Positions 5,127 to 57,049 of a DNA stretch of 64,000 bases are shown piece by piece. The position numbers and the translations under genes are program-made. Source of the DNA: Drechmeria coniospora (taxonomy: Eukaryota; Ascomycota; Sordariomycetes; Hypocreales; Ophiocordycipitaceae); the NCBI RefSeq assembly GCF_001625195.1, contig NC_054391.1:124001-188000 (forward strand). The letters run 5' to 3'. Under the pieces are notes generated by a model. It saw only the letters and a list, made by a program, of their open reading frames with translations, had not been told where the DNA came from and did no database searches. The number at the start of each line of letters is the position of its first letter. Position 1 is the first letter of the stretch.

Positions 5127-5456
5127 TTAATACGGCCTCCAGAGCCCGCACCGATACGGCGTGACCGTCACCCTGTCCATGTTCCAGACGCCCACCTTGG
5201 CTAGGGGGTCTTTGGCGAGCATCCGTCGCACCTCCTCCTCGGTGCCGGTTCGGAGGATCAGCACGCTGCCCGTGATCGATAGTCCTTCGGCCGGCGTGTC
5301 GGGGTGCCTGGTGAGAGTAGGGCCGGAGAGGATGAGTGTTCCTTGCTCGAGCAGCGGCTTGTTGTGCGCGAGGTGGGCACCGATGTTTGCCATCCTCTTC
5401 TGCAGCGCGTTTTCCTGGTCGGGAATCTGAACTAAAAAGTCGTTTTGTCCAGGCAT
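5127..5456 (-). CDS. YCII-related domain protein
   Basis: A 109-residue small protein matching the YCII fold over its full length. Landmarks are the start MPGQNDFLVQIPDQ, LQKRMANIGAHLAH, GTLILSGPTL, GSVLILRTGTEEEVRRMLAKDP and the closing VGVWNMDRVTVTPY (given here in pieces). The His in AHLAH and the Asp in the DP pair are the residues usually discussed as the YCII active-site pair. The frame stays open upstream to 5762, but those extra 102 residues have no domain, so the ATG at 5456-5454 is chosen. Fungal members are small cytosolic proteins with no firmly assigned reaction. The gene is convergent with the transporter and divergent from the dioxygenase at 6255. Confidence 0.85.
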   Translation of the reverse strand: MPGQNDFLVQIPDQENALQKRMANIGAHLAHNKPLLEQGTLILSGPTLTRHPDTPAEGLSITGSVLILRTGTEEEVRRMLAKDPLAKVGVWNMDRVTVTPYRCGLWRPY

Positions 5457-13774: not shown

Positions 13775-16700
13775 ATGCGACCTATAATAAGTAACGTAGC
13801 CGTTTTATTCGGCTTGCTTCCTTTTACCTATGGCAATAGTCTTAGCTGTAACGATGGGTTAGTTTTCGTTGAAAACCAACCTGTGGAATATGCCTGTTCC
13901 GGCAGTACTTCAAAGGGTATAATTCTTCGGTATGATACATCTCGATATATGAAGGGGGCAACGAAAATATAGCTAATAAAATGTAATTTAGATCGTATAC
14001 TAGCTGCCCTAGCCAGCGTCTTCCAACTGGTGGAATAGTAACTATGGTTACCCCGGGACCAACGGCCGGCACTACGACAATTCCGCCGCCGCCGGGATGT
14101 ACTACAAACTGCTTTACGCGAGTAATTATTACTGCAACAGGTGGAGTGACTACGGACTATACAGCCGGACCGACGCCCGGCACGACAACAGTTCTACCGC
14201 CGACGAGATGTATTACGAACTGCGTTACCCATGTAATTATTACTATAACAGGCGGAGTGACTACCGACTATACACTTGGACCAACGCCCGGCACGACGAC
14301 AGTTCTACCGCCGCCAGGGTGTATTACAAGCTGCTTTACGCATGTAATTATTACTACAACAGGCGGAATAACTACGGACTATACAGCCGGACCGACGCCC
14401 GGCACGATAACAGTTCTACCGCCGCCAGGGTGTATTACAAGCTGCTTTACGCATGTAATTATTACTACAACAGGCGGAGTAACTACGGACTATACAGCCG
14501 GACCGACGCCCGGCACGATGACAGTTCTACCGCCGTCAGGGTGTACTACAAACTGCTTTACGCGTATAATCATTACTACAACAGGCAGAGTGACTACCGA
14601 CTATACACTCGGGCCGACGCCCGGCACAACAACCGTTCCACCGCCAACAGGGTGCATTACGAACTGCTTTACACGCATAATTATTACGATAACCGGCAGA
14701 GTTATTACCGAGTATACACCCGGACCAACGCCCGGTACAATAACGGTCCCACCGCCTACGGAGTGTACTGCAAACTGCTTTACGCGTATAATCATTACTA
14801 CAACAGGCAGAGTGACTACCGACTATACACTTGGGCCGACGCCCGGCACAACGACCGTTTCACCACTGCCAGGGTGCAGTACAAACTGCTTTACGCGCGT
14901 AATTATTACCACAACAGGCGGAGTAACTACCGAATATACACCCGGACCGACGCCCGGCACGACAACAGTTCTAACACCTCCAGGATGTATTACGAACTGC
15001 GGTACACGCGTAATTATAACTACAACAGGCGGAGTGATTACCGACTATACATTCGGACCAACGCCGGGAACAACAACGGTCCCACCGCCGACGGGGTGTA
15101 TTGCGAACTGCGTTACACGTGTAATTATTACTATCACAGGCAGAGTGACAACCGAATATACAACCGGACCGACGCCCGGCACGACGACAGTTCTACCGTC
15201 GCCAGGCTGTATTACGAACTGCGTTACACGCGTAATTATTACTGCAACAGGCAGAGTGACTACCGAATATGCAACCGGACCGACGCCGGGTACAACAACG
15301 ATCCCACCGCCAACAGGGTGTATTACGAACTGCTTTACACGGATAATTATTACGATAACCGGCAGAGTGATTACCGAGTATACACCCGGACCGACGCCCG
15401 GTACAATAACAGTCCCACCACCTACGGAGTGTATTACGAACTGCATTACGAGTGTAATTATTACTACAACAGGTGGAGTGACTACCCACTATACACCGGG
15501 ACCAACGCCGGGTACAACAACGGTCCAGCCGCCACCTGGATGTACTGAGAACTGTTTTACGCGCGTAATTATTACTACAACAGGTGGTGTAACTACCGAC
15601 TATACACCCGGACCGACGCCCGGTACGACAACAGTTCTACCGCCGACGGGATGTATTACGAACTGTGTTACCCGCGTAATTATTACTATAACAGGCGGTG
15701 TGATAACCGACTATACACCCGGACCGACGCCAGGCACGACGACAGTTCTACCGTCGCCAGAGTGTATTACGAACTGCATTACGCGCGTCATTGTTACTAC
15801 AGCAGCCGGAGTGATTACCGACTATACACCCGGACCGACGCCGGGCACCACCACGGTCCAGCCACCGCCGGGATGTATTACGGACTGCATTACGCACGTA
15901 ATTATTACTACAACAGGTGGAGTGACCACCGACTATACACCTGGGCCGACGCCGGGCACAACTACGGTCCAGCCACCGCCGGGATGTATTACGAACTGCA
16001 TTACGCGCGTTATTATTACTACAACAGGCGGAGTGACTACCGACTATACACCTGGGCCGACGCCGGGCACCACCACGGTCCAGCCACCGCCGGGATGTAT
16101 TACGAACTGCATTACGCGCGTTATTATTACTACAACAGGCGGAGTGACTACCGACTATACACCTGGGCCGACGCCGGGCACGTCAACGGTCCAGCCACCG
16201 CCGGGATGTCTTACAAACTGCATTACGCGCGTTATTATTACTACAGCAGGCAGAGTAACTACCGACTATACACCCGGGCCGACTCCCGGTACGACAACAG
16301 TTCTACCGCCGACGGGATGTATTACGAACTGTGTTACCCGCGTAATTATTACTATAACAGGCGGTGTGATAACCGACTATACACCCGGACCGACGCCAGG
16401 CACGACGACAGTTCTACCGTCGCCAGAGTGTATTACGAACTGCATTACGCGCGTCATTGTTACTACAGCAGCCGGAGTGATTACCGACTATACACCCGGA
16501 CCGACGCCGGGCACCACCACGGTCCAGCCACCGCCGGGATGTATTACGGACTGCATTACGCGCGTAATTATTACTACAACAGGTAGAGTGACCACCGACT
16601 ATACACCTGGGCCGATGCCGGGCACAACTACGGTCCAGCCACCGCCGGGATGTATTACGAACTGCATTACGCGCGTTATTATTACTACAACAGGCGGAGT

Positions 16701-19700
16701 GACTACAGACTATACACCCGGGCCGACTCCCGGTACGACAACAGTTCTACCGCCGACGGGATGTATTACGAACTGCGTTACCCGTGTAATTATTACTGTA
16801 ACAGGTGGAGTGATTACCGACTATACATCCGGACCGACGCCGGGTACGATGACAGTCCAGCCATCTTCAGGATGTATTACGAACTGCTTCACGCACGTAG
16901 TCGTAACAACGGCACCAGATGTAATCATAACAACAACGCTGCCCGGCGCGGCATTTGGCACGTCGACCATTATGCCGCCTATTGACTGTACGCACCCTTG
17001 TACAACAAGTATCGTTATCTTTACAACCTGGAACCAGCCGCCAGATACGGTGATTACAATTACTACGATTGGCGCAGTACCCGGCACGTCGACTATTACG
17101 CCGCCCATTGACTGTACGCACCCTTGTACAACGAGAATTATTATAACAACTACGCCGAATCAGCCACCAGATACGGTTATTACAACTACTACAATTGGCA
17201 CGGTGCCTGGCACGTTGACTATTACTCCGCCTATTGACTGTACGCATCCTTGTACGACACGTATCGTTATCTTTACTACGTCGAACCAGGTTACAGATAC
17301 GGATATTACAACCACTTCAATTGGCACGGCATCAATAACTACGCCGAATCAGCAACAAGATACAGTTATTACAACTACTACAATTGGCACGATGCCTGGC
17401 ACTTCGACTATTAATCCGCCTATTGACTGTACGCATCCTTGTACAACACGTATCGTTATCTTTACAACGTCGAACCAGCCGCCAGATACGGTGATTACAA
17501 TTACTACAATTGGTACAGTGACTAGCACGTCGACTATTATGCCGCCTGTCGACTGTACGCATCCTTGCACGACGAGGGTTATTATCTATACTACACCAAA
17601 TCAGTTGTCTGATACGGTCATTACAACTACTACAATTGGAACGGTACCAGGTACATCGACTATAACGCCGCCTATTGACTGTACGCATCCTTGTACGACG
17701 AGTGTTATTATAATAACTACACCAAATCAGCCGCTAGATACGGTCATTACAACTACTACAATTGGCACAGTACCTGGCACATCGACTATTACGCCTCCTA
17801 TAAACTGTACCCATCCTTGTACGACGAGTGTTATTGTATTTACAACCTCGAGCCAGCCGCCAGATATGGTAATCACAATTACTACGATTGGCACAGTACC
17901 TGGCACGTCGACTGTTACTCCTCCTATTGACTGTACGCATCCTTGTACGACGAGCGTAATTATTTTTACTACGCCAAATCAGCCGTCCGATGCGATTATT
18001 ACAACTACTACAATTGGCACGGCACCTGGCACATCGACCATTATGCCGCCCATTGACTGTACGCATCCTTGTACGACACGTATCGTTGTTACTACTACGC
18101 CGAACCACTCGCCAGATACTGTTATTACCACTACTACAATTGGTACAGTACCTGGAACGTCGACTATTACGCCGCCTATTGACTGTACTCATCCTTGTAC
18201 GACACGTATTATTATCTTTACGACGTCGAATCAGCCGCCAGATACAGTAATTACAACTACTACAGTTGGTACAGTACCTGGTATGTCGACTGTAACGCCG
18301 CCTATTGACTGTACGCATCCTTGCACGACGAGCGTAATTATTTTTACTACGCCAAATCAGCCGTCCGATACGATTATTACAACTACTACAATCGGTACGG
18401 CACCTGGTACGTCGACTATTATACCGCCTATTGACTGTACTCATCCTTGCACAACGAGGGTTATTATCTTTACTACGCCAAACCAGCCGCTAGATACGGT
18501 TATTACAACTACTACACTTGGCACAGTACCTAGTACATCAACTATTACGCCGCCTATTGACTGTACTCATCCTTGCACAACGAGGGTTATTATCTTTACG
18601 ACGTCGAATCAGCCGCCAGATACAGTAATTACGACTACTACAATTGGCACAATACCAGGTACGTCGACTATAACGCCACCTATTGACTGTACGCATCCTT
18701 GCACGACACGTATCATTATTATTACTACGCCGAATCAGCCTCTTGATACGGTTATTACAACTACTACAATTGGTACGGCGCCTGGTACGTCGACTATTAT
18801 ACCGCCCATTGACTGTACGCATCCTTGTACAACACGTATCGTCATTTTTACTACGCCAAATCAGCCGCCAGATACAGTTATTACAACTACTACAGTTGGT
18901 ACAGTACCTGGTACGTCGACTATTACGCCGCCAATTGACTGTACTCATCCTTGTACGACGAGGGTTATAATAACAACTACACCCAATCCAACGCTAGATA
19001 CGGTTATTACAACTACTACAATTGGAACGGTGCCTGGCACGTCGACTATTATACCGCCTCTTGACTGTACGCATCCTTGTACGACGAGAATTATTGTCTT
19101 TACTACGACAAATCAGCCGTCAGATACAGTTATTACAACTACTACAATTGGTACGGCACCTGGTACATCGACCATTATGCCGCCCATTGACTGTACGCAT
19201 CCTTGTACGACACGTATCGTTGTTACTACTACGCCGAACCACTCGCCAGATACTGTTATCACCACTACTACAATTGGTACAGTACCTGGAACGTCGACTA
19301 TTACGCCGCCTATTGACTGTACTCATCCTTGTACGACACGTATTATTATCTTTACGACGTCGAATCAGCCGCCAGATACAGTAATTACAACTACTACAGT
19401 TGGTACAGTACCTGGTACGTCCACTGTAACACCGCCTATTGACTGTACGCATCCTTGCACGACGAGCGTAATTATTTTTACTACGCCAAATCAGCCGTCC
19501 GATACGATTATTACAACTACTACAATTGGCACGGCACCTAGTACGTCGACTATTATACCGCCTATTGACTGTACTCATCCTTGCACAACGAGGGTTATTA
19601 TCTTTACTACGCCAAACCAGCCGCTAGATACGGTTATTACAACTACTACACTTGGCACAGTACCTAGCACATCGACTATTACGCCGCCTATTGACTGTAC

Positions 19701-22700
19701 GCATCCTTGCACAACGAGGGTTATTATCTTTACGACGTCGAATCAGCCGCCAGATACAGTAATTACGACTACTACAATTGGCATAATACCAGGTACGTCG
19801 ACTATAACGCCGCCGATTGACTGTACGCATCCTTGTACGACGAAAATTATAGTCTTTACTACAATAAATCAGCCGTCAGATACAGTTATTACAACTACTA
19901 CAATTGGTACGATACTTGGAACGTTGACTATTACTCCACCTATTGATTGTACTCATCCTTGTACGACGACCGTTATTATAACGACTACGCCAAATCAGCC
20001 GCTAGATACAGTCATTACGACTACTACAATTGGCACTGTACCTGGAACGTCGACTATTACGCCGCCTATTGACTGTACGCATCCTTGTACGACACGTATT
20101 ATTATCTTTACGACGTCGAATCAGCCGCCAGACACAGTTATTACAACTACTACAATTGGTACGGCACCTGGTACATCGACTATTACCCCTCCTGTTGATT
20201 GTACTCATCCATGTACGACGAGGGTTATTATCTTTACCACGCCGAACCAGCCACCAGATACGGTTATTACAACTACTACAATTGGTACGGTAGCTAGGAC
20301 GTCGACTATTACGCCTCCTACTGGCTGTACTCATCCTTGTACGACGAGTGTTATTATCTTTACTACGCCAAACCAGCCGCTAGATACGGTTATTACAACT
20401 ACTACACTTGGCACAGTACCTAGTACATCGACTATTACGCCGCCTATTGACTGTACTCATCCTTGCACAACGAGGGTTATTATCTTTACGACGTCGAATC
20501 AGCCGCCAGATACAGTAATTACGACTACTACAATTGGCACAATACCAGGTACGTCGACTATAACGCCGCCGATTGACTGTACGCATCCTTGTACGACGAG
20601 AATTATTGTCTTTACTACAACAAATCAGCCGTCAGATACAGTTATTACAACTACTACCATTGGTACGATACCTGGAACGTCGACTATTACTCCACCTATT
20701 GATTGTACTCATCCTTGTACGACGAGCGTTATTATAACGACTACGCCAAATCAGCCGCTAGATACAGTAATTACGACTACTACAATTGGCACTGTACCTG
20801 GAACGTCGACTATTACGCCGCCTATTGACTGTACGCATCCTTGTACGACACGTATTATTATCTTTACGACGTCGAATCAGCCGCCAGACACAGTTATTAC
20901 AACTACTACAATTGGTACGGCACCTGGTACATCGACTATTACCCCACCTCTTGATTGCACTCATCCATGTACGACGAGGGTTATTATCTTTACCACGTCG
21001 AACCAGCCACCAGATACTGTTATTACGACTACTACTATTGGCACTGTCCCTGGTACGTCGACCATTACGCCACCCATTGGCTGTACTCATCCTTGTACGA
21101 CGAGAGTTATTATCTTTACCACGCCAAACCAGCCACCAGATACGGTTATTACGACTACTACACTTGGCACAGTCCCTAGTACATCGACTATTACGCCGCC
21201 TATCGACTGTACGCATCCTTGCACGACACGTATCGTTATCTACACTACGCCTAACCAGCCGCCAGATACGATTATTACAACTACGACAATTGGCACCGTA
21301 GCTAGGACGTCGACTATTACGCCTCCTGCTGGCTGTACTCATCCTTGTACGACGAGTGTTATTATCTTTACTACGCCAATCCAGCCGCTAGATACGGTTA
21401 TTACAACTACTACACTTGGTACAGTACCTAGTACATCGACTATTACGCCGCCTATTGACTGTACTCATCCTTGCACAACGAGGGTTATTATCTTTACTAC
21501 GCCAAACCAGCCGCTAGATACGGTTATTACAACTACTACACTTGGCACAGTCCCTAGTACATCGACTATTACGCCGCCTATTGACTGTACGCATCCTTGT
21601 ACGACACGTATTATTATCTTTACCACGCCTAACCAGCCGCCCGATATGGTTATTACAACTACTACAATTGGTACGGTAGCTAGGACGTCGACTATTACGC
21701 CTCCTACTGGCTGTACTCATCCTTGTACGACTAGTGTTATTATCTTTACTACGCCAAACCAGCCGCTAGATACGGTTATTACAACTACTACACTTGGTAC
21801 AGTACCTAGTACATCGACTATTACGCCGCCTATTGACTGTACTCATCCTTGCACAACGAGGGTTATTATCTTTACTACGCCAAACCAGCCGCCCGATACG
21901 GTTATTACAACTACTACACTTGGCACAGTACCTAGCACATCGACTATTACGCCGCCTATTGACTGTACGCATCCTTGTACGACACGTATCATTATCTATA
22001 CTACGCCTAACCAGCCGCCAGATACGGTTATTACAACTACTACAATTGGTACGGTAGCTAGGACGTCGACTATTACGCCTCCTGCTGGCTGTACTCATCC
22101 TTGTACGACGAGTGTTATTATCTTTACTACGCCAATCCAGCCGCTAGATACGGTTATTACAACTACTACACTTGGTACAGTACCTAGTACATCGACTATT
22201 ACGCCGCCTATTGACTGTACTCATCCTTGCACAACGAGGGTTATTATCTTTACTACGCCAAACCAGCCGCTAGATACGGTTATTACAACTACTACACTTG
22301 GCACAGTCCCTAGTACATCGACTATTACGCCGCCTATTGACTGTACGCATCCTTGTACGACACGTATCATTATCTATACTACGCCTAACCAGCCGCCAGA
22401 CACAGTTATTACAACTACTACAATTGGTACGGTAGCTAGGACGTCGACTATTACGCCTCCTGCTGGCTGTACTCATCCTTGTACGACGAGTGTTATTATC
22501 TTTACTACGCCAATCCAGCCGCTAGATACGGTTATTACAACTACTACACTTGGTACAGTACCTAGTACATCGACTATTACGCCGCCTATTGACTGTACTC
22601 ATCCTTGCACAACGAGGGTTATTATCTTTACTACGCCAAACCAGCCGCTAGATACGGTTATTACAACTACTACACTTGGTACAGTACCTAGTACATCGAC

Positions 22701-25503
22701 TATTACGCCGCCTATTGACTGTACTCATCCTTGTACAACGAGGGTTATTATCTTTACTACACCAAACCAGCCGCCCGATACGGTTATTACAACTACTACA
22801 CTTGGCACAGTACCTAGTACATCGACTATTACGCCGCCTATTGACTGTACGCATCCTTGTACGACACGTATTATTATCTTTACTACGCCTAACCAGCCGC
22901 CTGATACGGTTATAACATATACTACACTTGGTACAATACCTAGCACATCGACTATTACGCCTCCTACTGGCTGTACTCATCCTTGTACGACGAGTGTTAT
23001 TATCTTTACTACGCCTAACCAGCCGTCAGATACGGTTATTACAACTACTACAATTGGTACGGTAGCTAGGACGTCGACTATTACGCCTCCTACTGGCTGT
23101 ACTCATCCTTGTACGACGAGTGTTATTATCTTTACTACGCCAAACCAGCCGCTAGATACGGTTATTACAACTACTACACTTGGCACAGTCCCTAGTACAT
23201 CGACTATTACGCCGCCTATCGACTGTACGCATCCTTGCACGACACGTGTCGTTATCTATACTACGCCTAACCAGCCGCCAGATACGGTTATTACAACTAC
23301 TACAATTGGTACGGTAGCTAGGACGTCGACTATTACGCCTCCTGCTGGCTGTACTCATCCTTGTACGACGAGTGTTATTATCTTTACTACACCAAACCAA
23401 CCGCTAGATACGGTTATTACAACTACTACACTTGGCACAGTCCCTAGTACATCGACTATTACGCCGCCTATCGACTGTACGCATCCTTGCACGACACGTA
23501 TCGTTATCTACACTACGCCTAACCAGCCGCCAGATACGATTATTACAACTACGACAATTGGCACCGTAGCTAGGACGTCGACTATTACGCCTCCTGCTGG
23601 CTGTACTCATCCTTGTACGACGAGTGTTATTATCTTTACTACGCCTAACCAGCCGTCAGATACGGTTATTACAACAACTACAATTGGTACGGTAGCTAGG
23701 ACGTCGACTATTACGCCGCCTAGTGACTGTACTCATCCTTGTACGACGAGGGTTATCATCTTTACTACGCCAAACCAGCCGCCAGATACAGTTATTACAA
23801 CTACTACAATTGGTACGGTACCTGGTACGTCGACTATTACGCCTCCTATTGACTGTACCCATCCTTGTACGACGAGGGTTATTATCTTTACTACGCCGAT
23901 CCAGCCGCCAGATACTGTTATTACAACTACGACACTTGGTACTCTACCTGGTACGTCGACTATTACGCCTCCTATTGGCTGTACTCATCCTTGTACGACG
24001 AGGGTTATCATCTTTACTACGCCGATCCAACCTCCAGATACGGTTATTACAACTACTACAATTGGTACTGTAGCTAGTACGTCGACTATTACGCCCCCTA
24101 TTGGCTGTACTCATCCTTGTACGACGAGTGTTATTGTCTTTACTACGTCGATCCAGCCGCCAGATACGGTCATTACAACTACTACAATTGGTACAGTACG
24201 TGGAACGTCGACTATTACTCCTCCTATTGGCTGTACTCATCCTTGTACGACGAGGGTTATTATCTTTACTACGCCGATACAGCCCTCAGATACGGTTATC
24301 ACAACTACCATAACTGGCGCAGTACCTGGCACGTCAACTCTTACGCCGCCTGTTGACTGCACGCATCCTTGTACAACGAGAATTATTGTTACGCAACCTC
24401 CTGATGTTGTTATTACTTCTACGGTGACTACCGGAACTGTAACCGGTACGACGACAATCACCCCCTCTGTTGGCTGCATACATCCGTGCACGACCATTGT
24501 AGTCGTAACACAGCCGATTCCCCCTGATACAATCATTACAACTACTATAACCCTTGGGAACGTTTACTCTACGCAGACGGTCACCCCGCTGGCCGACTGT
24601 ACGCACCCCTGTACGACGAGGGTTATTATTAGAGTGCCCCGTGATGTCGCCGTAACTACTACGATTACTGGAACGGTCGCTGGGTCGAGAACGATTACAC
24701 CTCCAGCAGCCTGCACTCATCCATGTACGACGAGTGTTATTGTTACCGTTACCGCTTTGCCCTGTGGCCCTGGGTACCTGCTTCAACAAACTGGAACCGC
24801 TGTAGTAAACCCAATTCGTTTTTATTCGGTAGACCCCGCAACAGGAAATTCTACTCTCCTTAAAACCGACCTCCTGCCTGGGGCGCTGCAGATAAATGCT
24901 ATTGGTTATAACGTACGAGATGGGCGAATATATGGGTCTCTCGGTTCGGCACCTCCCCAAGGTTTGGTGCAAATTGATGCTGCAGGTAACGCTCGGCAAA
25001 TACCTGGCGTAACGTTGCCATTTTATACGTATTGTGGCGATATTACTCCAAACGGCCATTATTGGATTCTAAGTTTTACCCAAGTTCCAGGCCAGACGTC
25101 GTGGGCGGAAATTGACCTATCGAGTCCGGGAACAGCCTCATTTGGCACCGTAATTGCCCAAGGAACAGTGCCCTATAGTTATTCTATAGATGACTGGGCC
25201 TATGTTCCCGGAAACGGCAATGCCTTGTACGGGTTAGCGGTCGGGTTTGGTAGCGTTGCACCTACGGTCCTTTATCGATTTGATATGAATACCCATACGT
25301 TTAGTGTCGTTCGGAACTTTGGAAGCGTGGGTAGTAATTCTGCATCAATAGATGTTTTTGGTAGTTCGGATGGGTATCTATTTGCTAATACTTTTTCCGG
25401 ATTCTATAAGGTAAAGGTTGATGGCTCAGGGAGCTTGGAAAGAATTGGAGACACTGGTGTACTTCCAGACGATGGCGCGAGATGTATTAACGCCCCCTCA
25501 TAA
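13775..25503 (+). CDS. Giant secreted tandem-repeat protein, paralog 1 (A+B repeats, DUF6923-like C-terminus)
   Basis: Two exons (13775-13929; 13992-25503) coding for about 3888 residues. Exon 1 encodes a signal peptide (MRPIISNVAVLFGLLPFTYG) and a short Cys-containing mature N-terminus. The 62-nt intron (GTATGA...CTAAT...TTAG, phase 2) is placed by matching paralog 2, giving the junction LR/SYTSCP against IR/KYTSCP. Exon 2 holds 26 A units of 37 aa (TTTGGVTTDYTPGPTPGT type), about 60 B units of 42 aa (PPDTVITTTTIGTVPGTST then PPIDCTHPCTT) and a globular C-terminal domain of about 245 aa (24763-25500). That domain has FYSVDPATG, INAIGYNVRDGRIYG, CGDITPNGHYW and a final ARCINAP, resembling DUF6923-type propeller domains. 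There is no GPI signal. The Thr/Pro richness suggests heavy O-glycosylation. A role as a secreted or wall-associated adhesin-like protein is inference. Confidence 0.85.
14047..16926 (+). repeat. A-type array of paralog 1, 26 units of 111 bp
   Basis: Each 37-aa unit follows x-G-P-T-P-G-T-T-T-V-x-P-P-x-G-C-I-T-N-C-x-T-R-V-I-I-T-T-T-G-G-V in scattered form, with one C-x3-C pair. Because the period is a multiple of three, two other frames stay open for hundreds of codons; these are shadows. A block of six units is duplicated, with 15631 onward and 16297 onward identical over more than 260 bp. Confidence 0.92.
16927..24756 (+). repeat. B-type array of paralog 1, about 60 units of 126 bp
   Basis: Each 42-aa unit carries DCTHPCTT (C-x3-C) and alternating Thr/Val/Ile stretches suggestive of beta strands. 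One unit near 17300-17345 has an internal deletion (GTASITTPNQQQ). Higher-order copies have offsets of 1134 bp (nine units; 18101 against 19235) and 756 and 378 bp (six and three units; 21321, 22077, 22455). The last units toward 24760 are the most diverged and retain shorter linkers. Confidence 0.92.
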
Positions 25504-25585
25504 TACTACTACCATAGGTAAATTATAGGTAGATATAGGCCGGGGATATGAGCTCCTAGTATAGCTACTCCTTATTTGAGGATTA

Positions 25586-25785
25586 TGTTTGTTCGGTTCT
25601 GTGAGAAACCTGTGACAAGACATCTCTTTCAATGATTCAAGTTGGTACTCCGTACAAAGGGTAAAATGCAGGTTGCGTTATTTAAGCCTACTTCTACCCC
25701 CGTTGGTTACAAGGTTGCGATTTCGTAATCCTCATCTGAGTCACTTTGCCCACGCCATGACCTTTCCTTGGTCAATATATACACG
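25586..25785 (+). repeat. Dispersed TGTTGGTTCGG-family repeat, copy 6
   Basis: A diverged copy starting TGTTTGTTCGGTTCTG, followed by ACATCTCTTTCAATGATTCA, TACAAGGTTGCGATTTCGTA and CTTGGTCAATATATAC. It lies only 83 bp after the stop codon of giant paralog 1, so it may contribute to that gene's 3' UTR or terminator region. Confidence 0.65.
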
Positions 25786-26918: not shown

Positions 26919-27380
26919 ATGGCGAAGATGACAATCTTCCACATCGTCCTATTCCAGTTCAAGGAGGGCCTCTCAAAGGCGGAGGTGAAGGCTGTAAGAC
27001 GTCGGTTCCCCCATGCACGCGCGGGCTGTACTTGACGACCGACAATTAGGCCTCGGAGGGAATGGTCGCCATCGACACCAAATGTCTTCACCCCAAGACC
27101 AAGCGGCCGTACGTCCGAAACAGAATGGGCGGAATCAACAACAGCCCCGAAGGACGCGCCGTGAGTGATGCGGCGATGAGCAGCACGTCTTTCCGGGACG
27201 ATTCGCTAACCGCCGTACCAGCGCGGAATGACTCATGGGTACATTTGCGAGTTTGACAACGAGGAGGACCGAATCTATTATCTCGAGGAGGACCCAGCCC
27301 ATAAGGAGTGGGTTCAGCACGTGAAGCCGTATCTTGCCGGTGCGCAAGTCGTCGACTTTGTACCGGGCGTGCACGTTTGA
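26919..27380 (+). CDS. Stress-responsive A/B-barrel (Dabb) domain protein
   Basis: A small three-exon gene (26919-26993, 27050-27160, 27222-27380) giving 114 residues. The introns are 26994-27049 (GTAAGA...TTAG) and 27161-27221 (GTGAGT...CTAAC...CCAG), both phase 0. The product is a single Dabb domain: MTIFHIVLFQFKEGLS (strand 1), MGGINNSPEGR in the middle, then the diagnostic GMTHGYICEFDNEED, DPAHKEWVQHVKPYL and AQVVDFVPG. Family proteins form dimeric alpha/beta barrels; fungal and plant members are linked to stress or small-molecule binding, some to cyclase-like reactions. It lies between the convergent 3' ends of the two giant genes and is unrelated to them in sequence. The substrate is unknown. 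Confidence 0.88.
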
Positions 27381-27583
27381 TTCGAGGCGTCGTCGTTCAT
27401 ATTACGGGAAGCTAGTGCTGGAATGGAAGACTGCGCGGAATATTGATGTGCTGCCACGCTGCCTCCTTTTCGTCCAAGTCATGGTCATGAAGACAGCCGT
27501 TGTGCGAGTTTAGGGGCAAGCATATGACGTTCCCACCACCGTCATGTCTGGCACAGTTGCGATGACAACAGCCCCGTGAGAAC

Positions 27584-30500
27584 TTAATCCGGGTTGAGAG
27601 CTCCGGCGCAGATGGCACCGTCATTGCCAACCGTCACTTGGCCGGTTGTCGAGACAAGCACAGCGTTCCCCGGGTTCACCACCTTGATCCTGTAGATTCC
27701 TCCAGAAGCATTGTCCGAACCGTAAAGAGATCCATCCGATGTTCCGTAGACTGCGCCGAATACGTTGTGTCCAACACTTCCCAGCATCTTTTCTATCGTC
27801 CAGACGCGGGATTGCATGTTGAACTTTGCCAGGTATGTGAAGGTGCAGGTAGGGTTAACTCCTGTTGAGCATCCAATGGGTCCAAAGCCGAATGTCCACA
27901 AGAAGTTTCCGCCTCCAGGAACGTAACCCCAGTCGCTCACATAATATCCTTGGTGACGAGACATTCCCGAGTTCAGAATGGTGCCAAAATTTGGAGAGCT
28001 GGAGTCGGACAAATCCATCTGGGCCCAGTTAAAGGTTCCCTCCTGCGCGTTTGTATCATTGCCTACTGCCCCCCCCAAGGACCAGTAATGTCCTTGTGGA
28101 GTGATATCTCCCACTCTGCTGCCTTCCCAGGCCTGATCGATGGATAGGATCTCACCAACACCTCCAGCTCCGATCCTGACAAGTTTTCCAAGACCGGAGC
28201 TTCCATAAATATAGTTGTCAATCACGTTGAACCCGATGGCGTTTACACCCAGCGCCTCAGGAGTCACGTTTCCATTGATGAGATTCTGCTGGCCAGTGGC
28301 TAAATCAACACCAAAGAGTTGAGTAGGCGATTGGGGAGTGACGTTTTGTATGAGAAATCCCGATATGGTGCAGTTCAGGGTGCCTGGTGGTACGGCAGTC
28401 GCTGTAATGATCACGCTCGTTGTGCAAGGTCGAGTGCAGCTCGCCGGCGGAGTGATGGTCTCCGTTCCGGCCGCCGTACCGGATACGGTCGTCGTCACAA
28501 CAACATTGGGAGCTAGTGTAATGATGACGCTCGTCGTGCAAGGGTGCGTGCAGTCGGTTGACGGTGTGACGGTTCGTGTACCTGCCCTGGTGCCGGTGAC
28601 GGTTGTTGTCACGACGGTATCGGCGGCTGGAACCGTCACGATGATGCTGGTCGTACAGTTGCTACCGCATCCTGCCGTTGGCGGTATTGTTGTCGTGCCG
28701 GCGATCGGCCCGGGGGTGGTGATTGTTGTCCTCGCACCCGTCAGGGTCACGACAACGCTCGTGGTGCAGCCCGTGACGCACCTGGCGGATGGTGTAATGG
28801 TTGTCGTTCCCGGGCTCGGACCAAGAGTTGTTCTGGTGACGAGTCCGCCCGTGACAGTGACCACGACTCTGGTGGTGCAGTTTGTGATGCATCCCGCAGA
28901 CGGTGGAATGGTGGAGGTGCCGGGAGAAGGACCGGCTGTGGTGACGGTCGTAATATCGCCAGTTTCCGTCACGACGACGCTTGTAGTGCAGTTCAAAACA
29001 CACCCTGCCGATGGCATGATCGTGGTAGTACCCGGACTCGGACCAAGGGTTGTCCTGGTCACGAGCCCGCCCGTTACGGTAACAACGATTCTGGTGGTGC
29101 AGTTTGAGATGCATCCGGGCGAGGGCGGAATCGTTGAGGTTCCGGGAGATGGACCTGCCGTGGTGACGGTAGTAATTTCGCCAGTTTGTGTAACGACGAT
29201 ACTTGTGGTGCAGTTCGAAATACACCCTGATGATGGCAAGATCGTGCTCGTACCGGCACTTGGTCCAAGTGTCGTTCTGGTAACGATGTTACCAGTTACA
29301 GTAATTACAATGCTGGTAGTGCAGCTTATGATACATCCAGAAGACGGCGGAATCGTAGAGGTACCGGCAGAGGGACCTGGTGTTATGACGGTGATGATTT
29401 CGCCAGTTTGTGTAATAATAACGCTCGTGGCACAGCCTATGATACAACCTGACGAAGGCGTGATGGTAGTGGTACCCGCAGACGGACCAATTGTCGTTCT
29501 CGTAATGAGTCTGCCTGTTACAGTAACTACAACTCTGGTCGTACAGCTTGTAATGCATCCCGAAGACGGCGGTACCGTAGTGGTGCCGGCAGATGGACCT
29601 GCCGTCGTGACTGTGATGATTTCGCCAGTCTGTGTAACGATGATGCTTGTGGTACAGCCTGTGATGCAACCTGACGAAGGCATGATAGTGGTGGTACCCG
29701 CACTCGGACCAATCGTCGTTTCAGTGACGACGTCGCCCGTGACGGTGACGATTATGCTAGTTGTGCAGCTTATGATGCAACCTGAAGATGGCGGGACTGT
29801 CATGGTCCCGGGCGTTGGTCCGGGTACGGTTACTGTGGTGATTTCCCCAGTCTCTGTCACCACGATACTAGTAGTGCAGCTGACAATGCAGCCCGAGGAG
29901 GGCATGATTGTCGTAGTGCCTGCAGTCGAACCGATGGTCGTTTGAGTGACGATGTTTCCGGTGACTGTTATGATAATACTGGTGGTACAGCCTACAATGC
30001 ATCCCGACGATGGCAGTATTGTCGTCGTACCGCCTGTTGGTCCTGGTGTAATTACTGTAGTAATTTCTCCAGTCTCTGTAACTATGATACTAGTGGTGCA
30101 GCTGACGATGCAGCCCGAAGAGGGCATTATCGTTGAAGTGCCTGCCGTCAAACCAATGGTTGTTTGGGTAACCAGGTTTCCAGTTACAGTGATGATAATA
30201 CTGGTGGTGCAACTGATAATGCATCCTGAGGATGGCATGATGGTTGTCGTACCGCCTGTTGGCCCCGGCGTAATAACTGTAGTAATCTCCCCAGTCTCTG
30301 TGACTACGATACTTGTAGTGCAGCTGACAATGCACCCGGATGATGGCATAATGGTTACGGTACCTGCCGATGAGCCGATGGTTGTTCTGGTAACCAAGTT
30401 GCCAGTTACAGTTACGATAATGCTTGTAGTGCAGCCTACGATGCAGCCCGACGATGGCAGTATTGTAGTTGTGCCGGCCGAGGAACCTGGAGTCAATACT

Positions 30501-33500
30501 GTTGTGATCTCCCCAGTCTCCGTTACGACAACGCTGGTCGTACAGCTGACTATGCAACCCGACGATGGCATGATGGTTATAGTCCCTGCCGATGAGCCGA
30601 GGGTTGTTCTGGTAACTAGGTTGCCGGTAACTGTTATAATGATGCTTGTAGTGCAGCCTACAATGCATCCTGACGATGGCAGGATTGTAGCAGTACCGGC
30701 CATGGAACCTGGTGTCAATACCGTTGTAATCACTCCAGTCTCTGTGACGACAACGCTGGTGGTACAGCTAACAATGCATCCCGAGGATGGCATAATTGTT
30801 GTGGTGCCTGCAATGGAACCAAGCGTAGTTCTCGTAAAAAGGTTTCCGGTTACCGTAATGACAATGCTTGTAGTACAGCCTACGACGCATCCTGAAGATG
30901 GCATTATTGTAGATGTACCAGCCGTGGAACCCGGAGTCAAAACTGTTGTAATTACTCCAGTCTCCGTAACGACAATACTAGTCGTACAGCTAACAATGCA
31001 GCCGGAGGATGGCATAATGGTCATGGTACCTGCCGCCGAGCCAAGGGTTGTTCTCGTAACCAGGTTGCCAGTGACTGTTATTATAACGATTGTAGTGCAG
31101 CCTACAATGCATCCCGATGACGGCAGCACTGTCGCTGTACCAGCCGTAGAACCTGGTGTTAGCACTGTTGTAACTACTCCAGTCTCAGTGACAACAACGC
31201 TCGTGGTACAACTAACAATGCACCCGGGAGGTGGCATAATTGTTGTAGTTCCCGCGACTGAGCCGAGCGTTGTTCTTGTAAAGAGATTGCCAGTTACTGT
31301 AACAATAACACTTGTAGTGCAACCAACTATGCAACCCGAAGATGGAACGATGGTAGTGGTACCAGCCGTTGGTCCTGGTCGTAGTACCGTTGTAATGACT
31401 CCCGTTTCTGTAATTACAATACTAGTAGTACAGCTAGTTATACACCCTGAAGTTGGCATGATTGTTATAGTTCCAGCAGCTGAGCCAATGGTAGTTCTGG
31501 TGACGAGATTTCCAGTAACTGTTATGATAATGCTCGTAGTGCATCCTACAATGCACCCTGATGATGGTAGTACTGTATCTGTACCAGCTGTAGGACCCGG
31601 TGTTAATACCGTTGTAATTACTCCCGTCTCTGTGACAACAACACTAGTGGTACAACTAACGATACAGCCGGGAGGTGGCATGATTGTTGTAGTTCCAGCG
31701 ATTGAGCCGAGAGTTGTTCTGGTAAAGAGATTGCCAGTTACTGTAATGATGATGCTTGTAGTACAGCCAACGATGCAATCTGAAGATGGCATTATTGTCG
31801 TCGTACCAGCCGTGGGTCCTGGCCTTAGAACTGTCGTAAGTACTCCAGTTTCAGTAACGACAACACTCGTCGTGCAGCTGACAATACACCCAGGAGCTGG
31901 CATGATTGTTGTAGTGCCCGCTGTCGAGCCAAGCGTTGTTCTAGTAATAAGGTTTCCAGTTACTGTAATAATAATGCTTGTTGTGCAGCCAGTAATGCAT
32001 CCAGATGATGGCATTATTGTAGTAGTGCCAGCAGTTGGTCCCGGTCTCAATACTGTTGTAATTTCTCCAGTCTCCGTAACGACGACACTGGTTGTGCAGC
32101 TAACAATACAGCCTGGTGGTGGCATGATTGTTGTCGTACCTGCAATTGAACCAAGTGTTGTCCTAGATACAAGATTTCCAGTTACAGTAATAACAACACT
32201 CGTCGTACAGCCAATAATGCAACCAGACGATGGCATTATTGTTGTTGTACCAGCTGTCGGTCCTGGTCTTAACACTGTTGTAAGTACTCCTGTTTCCGTA
32301 ACGACAACACTAGTCGTGCAGCTGACAATACAGCCTGGGGGTGGCATGATTGTAGTAGTTCCTGCAACAGAGCCGAGCGTGGTTCTGGTAAAGAGATTTC
32401 CAGTTACTGTAATGATAATGCTTGTAGTGCAGCCAAGAATGCAACCCGACGACGGCATGATAGTTGTCGTGCCGGCCGTGGGTCCTGGCCTCAATACTGT
32501 TGTCAATGCTCCGGTTTCTGTGACGATAACGCTGGTAGTACAGCTGACTATACACCCCGAAGAGGGCATTATTGTTACAGTCCCTACAGCAGAGCCAATT
32601 GTGGTTCTAGTAACGAGATTTCCGGTAACTGTTATAATAATGCTTGTAGTGCAGCCTACAATGCATCCCGATAATGGTAGTACTGTAGCTGTACCAGCTG
32701 TAGAACCTGGTGTTAATACTGTTGCAACTACTCCAGTTTCTGTAATTACAACACTGGTAGTACAGCTAACAATACATCCGGGAGGTGGCATGATTGTTGT
32801 AGTTCCTGCAACGGAGCCGAGCGTTGTTCTGGTAAAGAGATTGCCAGTTACAGTAATAATGATACTCGTCGTGCAGCCAACAATGCAACCCGAAGACGGC
32901 ATCATTGTTGTCGTACCAGCTGTCGGTCCAGGCCTTAATACCGTTGTAACGACCCCAGTTTCGGTAACAACGACACTGGTCGTACAGCTTACAATGCAAC
33001 CCAGAGGTGGCATAATCGTTGTAGTACCTGCCAATGAGCCGATGGTGGTTCTTGTAACAAGATTTCCAGTCACTGTGATGATAATGCTCGTAGTGCAGCC
33101 AACAATGCATCCGGAAGATGGCATAATTGTGGTCGTGCCTGCTGTAGGTCCTGGCCTTAGCACGGTTGTGAGTACCCCTGTCTCCGTAACGATAACGCTG
33201 GTGGTGCAGCTGACAATACACCCGGGAGCTGGCATGATTGTTGTAGTACCTGCAATAGAGCCGAGAGTTGTACGGGTAAAAAGGTTGCCCGTCACTGTTA
33301 TGATAATGCTCGTAGTGCAGCCAACAATGCATCCCGACGACGGCTGTATTGTCGTCGTACCAGCCGTCGGCCCAGGTCTCAACACTGTTGTAACTACTCC
33401 CGTCTCGGTAACGACGATACTAGTAGTGCAGCTGACAATACAACCCGGAGCTGGCATAATTGTTGTAGTACCTGCAATAGAGTCGAGCGTTGTGCGGGTA

Positions 33501-36500
33501 ATAAGATTGCCAGTTACTGTGATGATAATGCTTGTAGTGCAGCCAACAATGCACCCCGACGATGGCATTATTGTAGTTGTACCTGCCGTCGGGCCTGGCC
33601 TCAAAACTGTAGTGACATCTCCAGTCTGAGTAATGATAATACTTGTGGTACAGTTTGCGATGCATCCAGAACTAGGACCAATGGTTGTTGTGCCAGGGCT
33701 TGGTCCCAAGGTCGTGATCCTTGTTACGGCTCCCGTAAGCGTAACAATAACACTCGTTGTACAATTGACAACGCAACCAGCCGACGGCATGATAGTTGAA
33801 GTGCCTGGAGTTGAGCCAAGAACTGTTGTAGTAGTAAGTCCACCTGTTACAGTTACTATGATACTAGTTGTGCAGCTGGTGATACATCCTGCTGATGGTA
33901 GAATCGTGGAGGTACCCAGAGCTGACCCTATTGTTGTAACTGTAGCTACGGCGCCAGTCTGGGTGACGATGACACTCGTAGTACAACTTGTAATGCACCC
34001 AGAAGGTGGCATGATAGTTGTAGTCCCCGGCATTGGACCAATTGTTGTGCTAGTAATAACCCGACCAGTAACTGTGACAATGATGCTCGTCGTACAGCCA
34101 ATGATGCATCCCGGAGAAGGCTGTATTGTTGTAGTGCCTGGTGTGGTCCCTATCATGGTTTGCGTTGTAATGTCACCAGTTTGGGTGACAACAATACTCG
34201 TAGTACAGCTTACAATACACTCAGAGGATGGCAGAATGGTTATCGTTCCTGCAATCGGACCAAGTGTCGTTCTAGACACAACATCGCCGGTTACAGTGAT
34301 GATGACACTAGTCGTGCAGCCCAATATACAACCAGAAGTTGGCAAAATTGTCGACGAACCGGGGGCGGATCCTAGAGTTGTAATGGTAGTAAGGGCGCCA
34401 GTCTGTGTAACGATGATGCTTGTAGTGCAGTCGGAGATGCACCCAGAGGATGGGACAACAGTTATCGTGCCGGCTGTTGGACCAAGAGTCGTTCTGGTAA
34501 CGAGTTCACCAGTTCGGGTGATGACAATGCTTGTTGTACAATCTATAATGCATTCGGGCGCTGGAGTGATGGTTGTTGTTCCTGCTACAGATCCCAGCAT
34601 TGTTACAGTAGTGATGCCACCGGTTTCCGTGACGATGACGCTTGTTGTACAGTCTCCAATACACTCAAGCGGCGGCGTGATGGTTGTAGTACCCCTGGTT
34701 TCACCAAGGGTTGTAACAGTTACAAGTCTGCCGGTTATTGTAATAACGACGCTAGTTGTGCAGCTCGTAGAACATCCAGAGGTAGGCAGAATCGTTTCAG
34801 TGCCCGGTGTCGGCCCTGGAATTGTCCTAGTTGTAATGACTCCAGTCTGGGTAATGATGATACTTGTCGTGCAGTCCTCGATGCATCCTGATGATGGCAT
34901 AATGGTTGTGGTACCTGCGGTTGGGCCAAGTGTTATTGATGTAACGAGTTCCCCAGTCACCGTTACAATAACGCTTGTCGTACAACTAGTGACGCATCCT
35001 GATGGTGGGAGGATGGTCGTAGTACCGGCCAGCACACCTAGCATAGTAGACGTAGTAACGCCACCGGTTTGGGTTACAATAATACTCGTAGTGCAGTCTG
35101 CAATGCATCCAGAGGGCGGCACAATGGTTGTAGTACCCGGCGTTGAACCCAGAATAGTCATGATTACAAGTTGGCCGGTAACAGTAACAAAGACGCTAGT
35201 AGTACAGCTAGTGATGCAGCCGGGCAAAGGTAATATGGTTGCCGTTCCAGGAGTTGATCCCAATACAGTTTCTGTAGTTACTTCACCAGTTTGCGTAATT
35301 ATAATGCTCGTAGTGCAGCTTGTGATACATCCAGAGGAAGGTTCGATGGTAGTGGTCCCTGCGGTTGGACCCAGGCTTGTTACCGTAACCAATGCACCTG
35401 TCAAGGTTACCAATACGCTCGTCGTGCAGTCAATGATGCATCCTGAGGATGGCTCGATAGTCGTGGTGCCGGCCGTTGGTCCCAAAGTTGTATTTGTAAT
35501 AATGTCACCAGTCTGGGTGACAATGATGGTCGTAGTACAACTTGATATACACCCAGATGAAGGTGGAATCGTTGTAGTTCCCGCTGCTGAACCCAATACT
35601 GTTGTTGTGACTAGTGCACCTGTTACAGTAACGAAAATACTCGTTGTGCAATCAGTGATACACCCCGATGACGGAAGAATTGTAGTGGTGCCGGGCGTTG
35701 GTCCCGGCGTTGAGATGGTAACAATATCACCAGTTTGCGTGACAATTATGCTCGTTGTACAGCTGGTAGTGCATCCAGTAGGAGGCACAACTGTCGAGGT
35801 GCCTGCGGTTGGGCCGATTGATGTTACAGTAACCAGTGCGCCGGTTACCGTTACAACAACGCTGGTCGTACAATCAGTGATGCATCCCGAGGATGGTGTG
35901 ATGGTTATTGTGCCAGGTTCGTCTCCCAATGTCAACAGAGTAGTGATGATGCCAGTCTCTGTGACTATGACGCTTGTGGTACAGCTCTCGATGCATCCAG
36001 GTGGAGGCGAAATAGTTGAAGTTCCCACGGTTGCGCCAAGAGTCGTTATGGTAATGAGTCTGCCCGTAACGGTAACGATGACACTAGTTGTACAGCTCGT
36101 AATACATCCGGGCTCCGGCAAGATCATTGTCGTGCCCGGAATCGATCCTAGCGTCGTGACTGTTGTGATTGCACCTGTTTGGGTAATGACAATGGTCGTG
36201 ACACAATTTGTGATGCACTCACTTGGCGGGGGAATCGTGCTGGTGCCGAGGGTAGGACCAAGACTTGTTATAGTTACAATGCCGCCAGTTATGGTCACAA
36301 TGACACTGGTGGTGCAGTCTGCAGTACACCCTTGGTCTGGCGGAATGGTAATGGTACCGGGGGTCGGCCCAGGGGTTGTTACCGTAACAATCATGCCAGT
36401 TCGCGTAACAATAACCGTAGTTGTGCAACTAGTAATACACCCAGGGGACGGCGCTATCGTTGTTGTTCCTGGAGTAGAGCCGAGCATCGTTGAAGTAACG

Positions 36501-39500
36501 AGTGCACCAGTAACTGTTACGATGACGCTGGTCGTGCAACTAGTAATGCATCCCGAAGATGGGGAAATCGTCGTAGTGCCTGGCATTGAACCAATGGTAG
36601 TAACTGTCACCAGCTCGCCAGTTACGGTAACAAAGACGCTCGTCGTACAGCCCGTAATACATCCTGATGATGGATGCATCGTCGTGGTGCCTGGCGTTGA
36701 ACCAATGGTAGTAACTGTCACCAGCTCGCCAGTTACGGTAACAAAGACGCTCGTCGTGCAACCCGTAATGCATCCTGGCGCCGGTAAACCCGTCGTAGTA
36801 CCCGGGACTGGGCCAAGGGTCGTCGTGCGGACGACATCACCCGTAACAGTAACAAAGACGCGCGTCGTACAACTGGTGATGCATCCAGGTGCCGGCTGCA
36901 CAGTCGTGGTGCCTGGGGATTGACCTAGTGTTGTTATCGTAGTCACTGCACCAGTCTGCGTAACAATGATGGTCGTAATGCAACCTGTTGTACATCCGGG
37001 GGATGGGGAAACCGTTGTAGTACCTGGTGTCGCGCCAATAATTGTGTTGGTAACAACTCCGGCCGTCAAGGTAACGAATACGCTGGTAGTGCAGTCCGTA
37101 ATACATCCCGATGATGGCGGGATTGTCGTCGTACCGGCAATTGGTCCGACTATTACTACTGTAGTGATCTCTCCGGTCTGAGTAACAATGACTGTCGTGG
37201 TACAGTCGTTAACACACCCAGGGGGGGGAGCAATTGTGGTTGTACCCTTGACGGAACCAATTGTCGTCTCAGTAACAACTCTGCCGGTAACCGTAACGAT
37301 AACACTAGTCGTGCAACTGGTAATACAGCCAGGCACCGGCAAGATTGTCGAGGTACCAAGGCTTGGCCCCAGTGTTGTCACTGTTGTGAATAGACCAGTT
37401 ACTGTGATGACAAGGCTCGTAGTACAACTCGTCACACATCCCGCTGGTGGCAAGATTGTTGAAGTGCCTGGGCTTGGAACAAGAGTAGTCCTGGTAAGAA
37501 GGTTACCAGTAACCGTTACGACGACTCTTGTGGTGCAGCTTGTAATGCATCCGGACTCTGGCTGGATTGTCGTCGTGCCAGCAGTTGAGCCCAAGCTAGT
37601 GACCGTAGTAATTACTCCAGTTTGTGTTACAAAAACGCTCGTGATGCAATTTGTAATACACCCCGTGGAGGGCAAGACCGTCCTGGTGCCGGCAGTTGGT
37701 CCAAGAGTAGTCTTTGTAATGATTCCGCCTGTCACGGTTATGATGACGCTCGTAGTGCAGCTTGTGATACACCCGATGCTTGGTGTGATGGTTGTAGTGC
37801 CCGGAATTGGACCCAAGGTCAATTCTGTTACCAGTCTCCCGGTTACCGTGACTACGATGCTCGTCGTGCAACTTTCAACACAGCCACCGGGGGGCATTAT
37901 TGTCGTAGTTCCCGCAGAAGGACCTACGGTGGTTCGAATTACTATTCCACCGGTCACGGTGACGATGACACTCGTCGTGCAGTCCAATATGCATCCGGCT
38001 ACCGGCGAGATCGTCGTCGTACCGGGAGATGGTCCTGGCGTGAGGATGGTGGTGATGGCGCCAGTTTGCGTGAGGATGATGGTGGTGGTGCAGCTTGTAA
38101 TGCATCCACTGGGAGGCACAATCGTCTGGGTACCTGGACTGGAACCAAGTGTCGTCTTGACGACAAGCCCGGCAGTTACGGTGACGATGACACTCGTCGT
38201 GCAGCTCGTGACGCACCCAGGCCCCGGCAAAATTGTCGTAGTGCCGGTCATTGTTCCCAACGTGGTCACCGTCTTGATGGCCCCCGTTTCGGTAATGACC
38301 ACGGTCGTGATGCAATTCGTAACACATTCGGCCGGCGGCAACATTGTTGTAGCGCCTGGCGTTGGGCCAAGCGTGGTCCGAGTCACGACTCCGCCGGTTA
38401 TGGTGACGATTACAGTCGTCGTGCAATGCGTGATGCAGCCAGGAGGCGGTGCCAGCGTCGTCGTGCCTGGGCTTGGACCAATGGTAGTCACCGTCACATG
38501 CTCGCCGGTAACGGTGATGATGACAGTTGTCGTGCAACTCGTAATGCACCCGGGTTTCGGCGTGATTGTTGTCGTCCCGGCCGTTGGTCCCGGGGTGGTA
38601 AAGGTCGTCACCCCCCCTGTGACGGTCACGACAACGCTTGTCGTACAGCTTGTGATGCATCCAGATTCGGGTAGGATCGTCGTGGTCCCAGGCAACAGCC
38701 CGGGGGTAGTCACTGTCGTGACTTTACCTGTCGCCGTGACGAAAATGGTGGTTATACAGCCCGTAATGCACCCAGGAGTCGGGGTGACGGTTGTCGTGCC
38801 GGCCACTGGACCGAGAATGGTCTTGGTCACGAGAGTGCCGGTGACGGTGACGACAACACTGGTGACGCAATGGCTAATGCATCCCGGAGCCGGCAATATC
38901 GTGGAGGTTCCTGCACTGGAGCCGAGAGTAGTTTGAGTGACCAGCATGCCGGTGGTTGTGACGAACACTCTCGTGACGCAGCCGGTAATGCACCCGGACG
39001 CGGGTAAGACGGTTGACGTTCCTAGAGTAGGTCCTAGAACTGTTTCCGTCATGGCACCGCCGGTAACGGTCACGATGATTGTCGTCACGCATTCACCGGT
39101 ACCGCTGGGCGGAGGCGAGATGGTTGAAGTTCCAGCGGTAGGACCCAACGTCATCTGCGTCAAAACCCTACATGTCACAGTCACTACGACGGTTGTACGA
39201 CAATCATCAGTGCATCCAGGCGATGGTGTGACTGTAGTGGTGCCAGGCCGTGACCCAGTGATTGTTTTCGTCACAATTTCGACCTCGACGGTCGTGATGA
39301 TGACCGTGGATGTGCATTTTTTGGTGCATCCAGGCGGTGGCGGAACCGTCGTCGTACCGGCTTTCGGTCCTACCTTTGTTATCGTAATAATGTCCGTGAC
39401 GGGCGGGCAGCTGGTATACTTTCTACAGACCACGGCCATTAGCATTTCCACACCACGGCAGAAATGCGAGGTCAGAGATACCGTATTATGCTACTCTCCA

Positions 39501-39636
39501 CCTTGTTGTCGGAGCAAACCAGAGCAAGAGGTTGATACTCGACGTAAACGGTTCCATGTCGGCATTTTGAGTCTCCATGGGCCAATGCACGGAGCAGCTG
39601 ATGGAAGAACAAAACCAAGAATAGAATCTTGTGCAT
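27584..39636 (-). CDS. Giant secreted tandem-repeat protein, paralog 2 (A repeats, DUF6923-like C-terminus)
   Basis: Two exons on the minus strand (39636-39482; 39422-27584) coding for about 3997 residues. Exon 1 (155 nt, the same length as in paralog 1) encodes the signal peptide MHKILFLVLFFHQLLRALA followed by HGDSKCRHGTVYVEYQPLAL. The 59-nt intron (39481-39423, GTATCT...CTAAT...GTAG) is phase 2 as in paralog 1. The mature protein is about 97 A units of 37 aa (TVTGELVTVTTIGSTPGT type with GCITSCTTS), two B-type units (DCTHPCTT, SCTRPCTT), then a C-terminal domain of about 260 aa (INAIGF-like VNAIGFNVIDNYIYG, GDITPQGHYW, WGYVPGGGNFL, DGAICAGA). No GPI anchor or transmembrane helix is seen at the end. 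A secreted, O-glycosylated surface or matrix protein is likely but inferred. The start at MHKIL is chosen because it begins the signal peptide; the frame stays open to 39690. Confidence 0.87.
28400..28640 (-). repeat. Two B-type units at the C-terminal end of the paralog 2 array
   Basis: The units contain GTRAGTRTVTPSTDCTHPCTT and GTAAGTETITPPASCTRPCTT (each split by the linker VVVTTTVSG-like bases). They match the B units that dominate paralog 1 and sit in the same place relative to the C-terminal domain. This marks the conserved junction between array and domain. Confidence 0.85.
28641..39370 (-). repeat. A-type array of paralog 2, about 97 units of 111 bp
   Basis: Units of 37 aa with one C-x3-C pair each. 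In the region about 29900-33700 the units alternate between a TETGVxTTVLRPGPTAGT type and a TVTGNLxTRTTLGSxAGT type, so the true period there is a 222-bp dimer. Units near the N-terminus (36900-39370) are more diverged. The codon-aligned antisense frame is almost stop-free, giving spurious plus-strand ORFs of up to 1227 codons. Confidence 0.92.
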
Positions 39637-47644: not shown

Positions 47645-49498
<1,854 letters not shown>

Positions 49499-56984: not shown

Positions 56985-57049
56985 CTAAGTAGTTCTTAAT
57001 AAACCTTCTATAGAAATTATAGAACCTAAGGAAAACTTAGATATTATGG

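Follow-up and report, generated by a model that had tools for sequence, protein, structure and literature searches.

A 64,000-nucleotide stretch of the genome of the fungus Drechmeria coniospora (C3:124001-188000, here called the window) holds two intact, convergent genes, A on the plus strand and B on the minus strand, which encode proteins of 3,888 and 3,997 residues with no internal stop in either. Each protein combines a signal-peptide-like start and a conserved first exon with a long repeat array of regularly spaced Cys pairs (CxxxC) and a C-terminal domain, or head, that is 39-40% identical between the two. We consider A and B, with a probability of about 0.6, to be adhesin-like members of a large secreted, mainly subtelomeric family of D. 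coniospora, in which an N-terminal module and a long stalk are joined to a varying C-terminal head. An earlier note on the window had described a facing giant pair of nearly equal length with these shared parts, and this description was borne out. Its treatment of A and B as one unit was not: both are members of a dispersed, mainly subtelomeric family, within which nothing sets these two apart as a pair.

Structure and integrity of the two genes

In both genes, a short first exon is followed by one intron and a very long second exon (Table 1). The two introns split the same Arg codon (CG/A), just before YTSC, and the splice sites were placed by the sequence likeness of A and B. The first-exon motif is [VI]x[VI][ED]xQPxxxxCS...R, with YTSCP-like residues after the intron. 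Judged by eye, A and B start with putative signal peptides and neither has an evident glycosylphosphatidylinositol (GPI) attachment signal. The stop-free frame observed spans 3,968 codons, against a longest of 289 in 60 first-order Markov copies of positions 13301-40260, and the open frames of A and B are not due to chance. That the assembly has misrendered array length or frame is hardly credible. Repeats are error-prone, and PMC7500977 describes repeat-linked artefacts in nanopore assemblies of D. coniospora; however, the published assembly is described as drawing on PacBio data and optical mapping among others, the reading frame is unbroken for more than 3,800 codons in both genes, as it is in 29 other frames of at least 3,000 residues.

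Table 1. Features of genes A and B, in positions of the window
Feature	Position	Strand	Remarks
Gene A exon 1	13775-13929	+	ATG at 13775; signal-peptide-like start and conserved module (VFVENQPVEYACS...ILR)
Gene A intron	13930-13991	+	62 nt, GT..AG, within Arg codon; inferred, matching the gene B intron in phase and position
Gene A exon 2, stop included	13992-25503	+	
Gene A array part 1	14098-16873	+	37-residue CxxxC units
Gene A array part 2	16874-24712	+	42-residue CTHPC units, a few irregular (one 63-residue spacing)
Gene A head	24751-25500	+	DUF6923-type domain; six-frame search 37.7 bits, cut-off 27
Gene B exon 1	39636-39482	-	ATG at 39636; signal-peptide-like start and conserved module (VYVEYQPLALVCS...IIR)
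Gene B intron	39481-39423	-	59 nt; inferred
Gene B exon 2, stop included	39422-27584	-	
Gene B array	28438-39328	-	37-residue CxxxC units, two kinds alternating
Gene B head	27587-28372	-	DUF6923 (PF21959, E 3.3e-14), predicted beta-propeller

The CxxxC arrays

Gene A carries 88 CxxxC pairs, spaced by 37 residues (25 spacings), 42 residues (57) or irregularly (five), and gene B carries 98, with 93 spacings of 37 residues and four irregular ones, of which one is doubled and includes an incomplete unit. The earlier note had given 86-99 units; its repeat arrays are real and, as it had said, Thr-rich and Cys-paired (Thr 30% in A and 27% in B). T, S, V, I, P and G together make up over three quarters of the array. 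Two kinds of unit alternate in gene B, since units resemble each other more at even than at odd lags (identity 0.69 for lag 2 versus 0.60 for lag 1). Between adjacent equal units, codon position 3 holds most of the differences (941/1,530 in A and 2,259/4,073 in B). The ratio of nonsynonymous to synonymous divergence (dN/dS) among units is 0.23 for the 37-residue and 0.21 for the 42-residue units of A, and 0.11 for B, where dS is near saturation. In an AlphaFold2 model of six B units (33 in-register rows), strands recur about every 37 residues, with a predicted local distance difference test score (pLDDT) of 49.7 and a predicted template-modelling score (pTM) of 0.47. An extended glycosylated fibre is plausible for the arrays.

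One weak BLASTP pairing (16/37 identical, E 0.004) raised descent of the CxxxC unit from an ALS-type unit. This descent is not supported: the profile-profile probability is 0.1 in both tests, against values of up to 1.2 and 1.5 for column shuffles (20 each). In viral contigs, no relatives of array or head were found, and none of the 38 and 10 pattern-matching stretches encodes one.

The C-terminal heads

The head of gene B matches DUF6923 at 53.7 bits in hmmscan (cut-off 27). Its AlphaFold2 model has a pLDDT of 84 and a pTM of 0.86 and matches solved beta-propellers over the whole domain (Foldseek, VIA-align); several propeller families tie, so the match is to propellers in general and not to a specific family or blade number. 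The propeller-like end proposed earlier is therefore upheld for B by structure prediction. Among the 14 heads compared, the nearest to the B head are propeller copies at C1:12.24 Mb (57%). At C1:12238022-12241969 (L016-L019, L021), a single frame of 5,508 residues holds five DUF6923 domains in tandem.

A dispersed, mainly subtelomeric family

Our searches of the fungus's own genome cover 32.83 Mb in 28 contigs. The three longest contigs measure 12,542,233, 10,204,147 and 9,751,215 bases, and the genome report gives the chromosomes of strain ARSEF 6962 as 12.5, 10.2 and 9.8 Mb (PMC4792172). The searches returned 37 matches for DUF6923 and 64 for GLEYA, together with at least 72 for ALS repeats (best 150 of 803 candidates scored) and at least 222 for the array (best 150 of 1,144 candidates scored). 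Exon 1 of B has 22 matches at E up to 10 and exon 1 of A has 18, each count including the query itself and each with 12 matches below 0.01.

From the matches listed, a set of 43 open frames, 1,000-6,916 residues long, was put together by hand; each contains at least one module that is shared with A and B or is a sister of theirs, and the frames are mechanical, with introns ignored. At least 2,000 residues are reached by 38 of them and at least 3,000 by 31 (median 4,136, coefficient of variation 0.16), while 21 lie between 3,600 and 4,500. In total, they occupy 470.6 kb, about 1.4% of the genome. GLEYA is present in 28 frames, DUF6923 in 11 and both in two. By our reading, ten frames are included for a long frame with GLEYA and little or nothing else, and the other 33 also show the array, a first exon, DUF6923 or ALS repeats. 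Shorter frames stand outside this count, among them those at C1:6.17 Mb (804 residues) and C2:10.115 Mb (846), one of 921 residues on C7 and other DUF6923, GLEYA, ALS or array frames of at most 921, as do broken copies at C2:9.40 Mb, at C2:9.43 Mb and on C10. In nine family stretches, hmmscan of the whole proteins finds DUF6923 in five (L036 and L038 being one gene), and PF05792 (ALS) repeats are present in other family frames. The protein at C3:9.737 Mb (L009) combines array, DUF6923 and GLEYA, and the 6,916-residue frame bears both head types. The lowest match coordinate lies less than 500 kb from a chromosome end in 29 of the 43 frames, a zone that makes up 9% of the three chromosomes; each chromosome flank is reported to carry about 0.5 Mb of species-specific repeats (PMC4792172).

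The family also contains compact forms. A paralogue of A at C2:10.115 Mb (L040:1677-4214, minus strand) has 37- and 42-residue units in the same order, with 14 CxxxC pairs versus 88. At C1:6.17 Mb, inside the chromosome, a paralogue with an 804-codon frame (L041:1804-4215) has an uninterrupted first-exon module and a DUF6923-type head, with one CxxxC and a few CxxxxC units, and is a candidate compact core form. Two array stretches about 11 kb apart in opposite orientation, C2:5139471-5140094 and C2:5151322-5151945, each match at 186.8 bits and 57% identity, which suggests an inverted duplication. The similar frame sizes may invite the reading of a standard length, although the short paralogue of A speaks against its strict form.

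Many frames of like size would also suit a layer. The proteins could be structural wall or mucilage glycoproteins, the arrays forming the matrix of the adhesive bud or the spore coat and the heads cross-linking or assembling it with no host recognition. The array composition agrees with this, and the non-motile spores of D. coniospora, a nematode endoparasite, are described as sticking through an adhesive bud (PMC4859500). However, the heads are conserved recognition-type domains (GLEYA/PA14 lectin or propeller) and differ between similar stalks, so a purely structural role is in our judgement unlikely.

Apparent exchange of first exons and heads

The head of A is 91% identical to that of the gene at C2:10.115 Mb, whereas exon 1 of the two is just 30% identical. 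Because these genes agree in the head and differ in exon 1, their parts look exchanged. For exon 1 of B, the best genome matches after itself are at C1:144.5 kb (E 1.2e-8) and C2:8.616 Mb (E 4.3e-8), both in genes that end in GLEYA. Its local alignment scores are 95 for the GLEYA gene at C1:144.5 kb, 93 for gene A and 88 for the DUF6923-headed gene at C3:0.765 Mb; some first-exon peptides in these alignments were shortened, and the comparison is one of scores and not of a tree. Heads and first exons may have been exchanged by recombination between loci.

Such discordance of first exons and heads, the placement of 29 of the 43 frames in the terminal zones and the broken copies with stops would also be expected of a surface-variation or allorecognition repertoire, in which exchange and switching among subtelomeric copies would confront host immunity or other strains with a coat that keeps changing. 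There is, however, no evidence here of mutually exclusive expression, and we hold this explanation to be very unlikely.

Comparison with known adhesins

The closest architectural likeness is to the GLEYA/DIPSY flocculins of fission yeast, which as summarized in PMC13147542 (after Linder and Gustafsson 2008) have a repetitive, beta-rich stalk and a C-terminal ligand domain, as do A and B. These flocculins are further described as having a signal peptide and conserved repeats and as lacking a GPI attachment signal (PMC8621652), and by eye A and B look alike in these respects; the conserved sequence repeats by which flocculins are recognized are present in both. Unlike them, A and B have a DUF6923 propeller, 88-98 CxxxC units, a conserved N-terminal exon and a length of about 4,000 residues. 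Fission-yeast flocculins are much smaller than that. No GLEYA or DIPSY match was found in A or B at E 1 by hmmscan, and GLEYA was found in paralogues. Because C-terminal GLEYA or DIPSY is found in neither protein, we liken A and B to these flocculins and do not file them there. The earlier note knew of no characterized protein with this architecture; in the published descriptions, the fission-yeast proteins share a similar plan, with a different head.

Within the genome, the GLEYA-headed paralogues at C1:144.5-157 kb and C2:8.616-8.628 Mb share with A and B a similar first-exon module, a 37-residue CxxxC stalk and CTHPC units before the head. Their head is GLEYA/PA14, unlike the propeller of A and B. 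The earlier note had placed adhesin, matrix and self/non-self systems side by side. The adhesin reading gains support because these two sister genes, with similar first exon and stalk, end in GLEYA and because infection is reported to proceed by adhesive spores (PMC4859500). The self/non-self part has lost ground, no link between A and B being seen.

The ALS adhesins of Candida (PF05792 repeats) and the Flo/Epa adhesins (N-terminal PA14/GLEYA) likewise join a repeat stalk to a binding domain, but in A and B the head is C-terminal and a GPI signal is not evident. In hmmscan, neither protein has a PF05792 match at E 1 or a match to a PA14 or GLEYA lectin domain. Many ALS and Flo/Epa-type adhesin genes are subtelomeric. 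Finally, bacterial DUF6923 proteins (31 loci, for example in Winogradskyella, Dyadobacter, Microbacterium and Demequina) have a homologous head, 23-37% identical to that of B (21 aligned). All four that were scanned are large multi-domain proteins, and two of the four have CshA adhesin repeats. Unlike in A and B, the domain in these four lies nearer the N-terminal end or mid-protein and is accompanied by other stalk domains, with type IX sorting tails in three. A strict literature search for the combination of propeller and adhesin gave no match; a looser search gave matches.

Codon context and a RIP-like signal in gene A

Third-position T before A is frequent in gene A (1,081/1,239) compared with gene B (479/1,064) and two chaperonin genes (2/94 and 3/66), and it is raised too (0.68-0.75) in four other family stretches. 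At synonymous third positions, T stands before A in 25/28 cases in the A head versus 7/37 in the B head (Fisher P 1e-8). The array of gene A has a TpA/ApT ratio of 1.7-1.8, and its frame is fully open nonetheless. C/T changes before A are raised modestly among array units. Recent repeat-induced point mutation (RIP) of gene A was considered and not accepted: of the 59 differences between the A head and its C2 copy, just 5 have the form C/T preceding A or G/A following T. The excess of T before A is left unexplained.

This RIP-like excess at synonymous sites might point to subtelomeric relics or minisatellites that encode little or no protein and are open by accident, their units being multiples of three bases. 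Several family copies are indeed broken, and the genes annotated as ALS are lowly transcribed in the published account (PMC4792172). Exon 1, intron phase and head are nevertheless conserved outside the repeats, dN/dS is 0.11-0.23 and 80 Gln and 4 Trp codons are kept in frame in A, all of which make this origin highly improbable.

Neighbouring genes

Between A and B lies a small three-exon Dabb gene (PF07876, E 1.7e-19; stress-response A/B barrel) at 26919-27380. Farther off in the window, an esterase (PF00135) is encoded at 48278-49498, and positions 5127-5786 encode a YCII domain. Positions 54001-64000 are AT-rich (GC fraction 0.42, TpA/ApT 1.35) and may be a RIP-affected repeat region.

Proposed working and significance

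The N-terminal module, stalk and C-terminal head, with no evident GPI signal, fit a reversed flocculin plan; we therefore favour an adhesin-type protein whose N-terminus would be held and whose head would point outward. The short, conserved, Cys-containing N-terminal module, which accompanies the signal peptide, would anchor the protein in the wall of spores or hyphae. The Thr/Val/Ile/Pro stalk, presumably O-glycosylated, disulphide-stiffened and beta-rich, would carry the head far out. The head, a DUF6923 beta-propeller or a GLEYA/PA14-type lectin, would bind a surface, for which nematode cuticle or wall glycans are the most plausible candidates; for this fungus we infer that cuticle is the likeliest target. 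Recombination between units would lengthen and shorten the arrays, and recombination of heads and first exons between loci would create a repertoire.

Several points weigh against this adhesin reading. Expression of A and B is something we infer, and the genome report describes high transcription for none of its ten ALS-domain genes (PMC4792172). The same report describes two families as expanded in D. coniospora, the ALS-domain family with 10 genes and the GLEYA family with nine, one of which is induced during conidiogenesis and infection (PMC4792172). The array fold is not settled by the low-confidence AlphaFold2 model, and the array units have no PDB profile match. As to the heads, whole-protein hmmscan of A lists no Pfam family, and it misses DUF6923 in L034, L040 and L041, three paralogue stretches where the six-frame search detects it. 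A PDB sequence search with the B head by itself gives nothing significant (best E 0.69), and we know of no ligand for DUF6923. The term DUF6923 was not found in the literature searched, which did not extend to supplementary tables, where A or B may be listed. The B part of the exchange argument is weak because the first-exon scores for the GLEYA gene and for gene A are nearly equal, with the DUF6923-headed gene next. Finally, great length is not required of every member, since the close paralogue of A manages with so few CxxxC pairs.

A bolder version of the adhesin reading, which we regard as doubtful, is that a repertoire of some 40 wall-anchored fibres of a standard length of about 4,000 residues, their lectin or bacterial-type propeller tips swapped by subtelomeric recombination, might form the adhesive bud by which nematodes are caught and set the host range. 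How D. coniospora spores attach to the cuticle is an open question in the Caenorhabditis elegans infection model, and the genome papers, as far as their accounts go, name single candidates for spore adhesion. The family found here is larger, with 28 GLEYA-bearing frames of at least 1,000 residues versus the nine GLEYA genes reported. Its modular build supplies expressible heads for binding tests, and the family offers a case for studying the persistence of giant tandem arrays where RIP is reported to operate.
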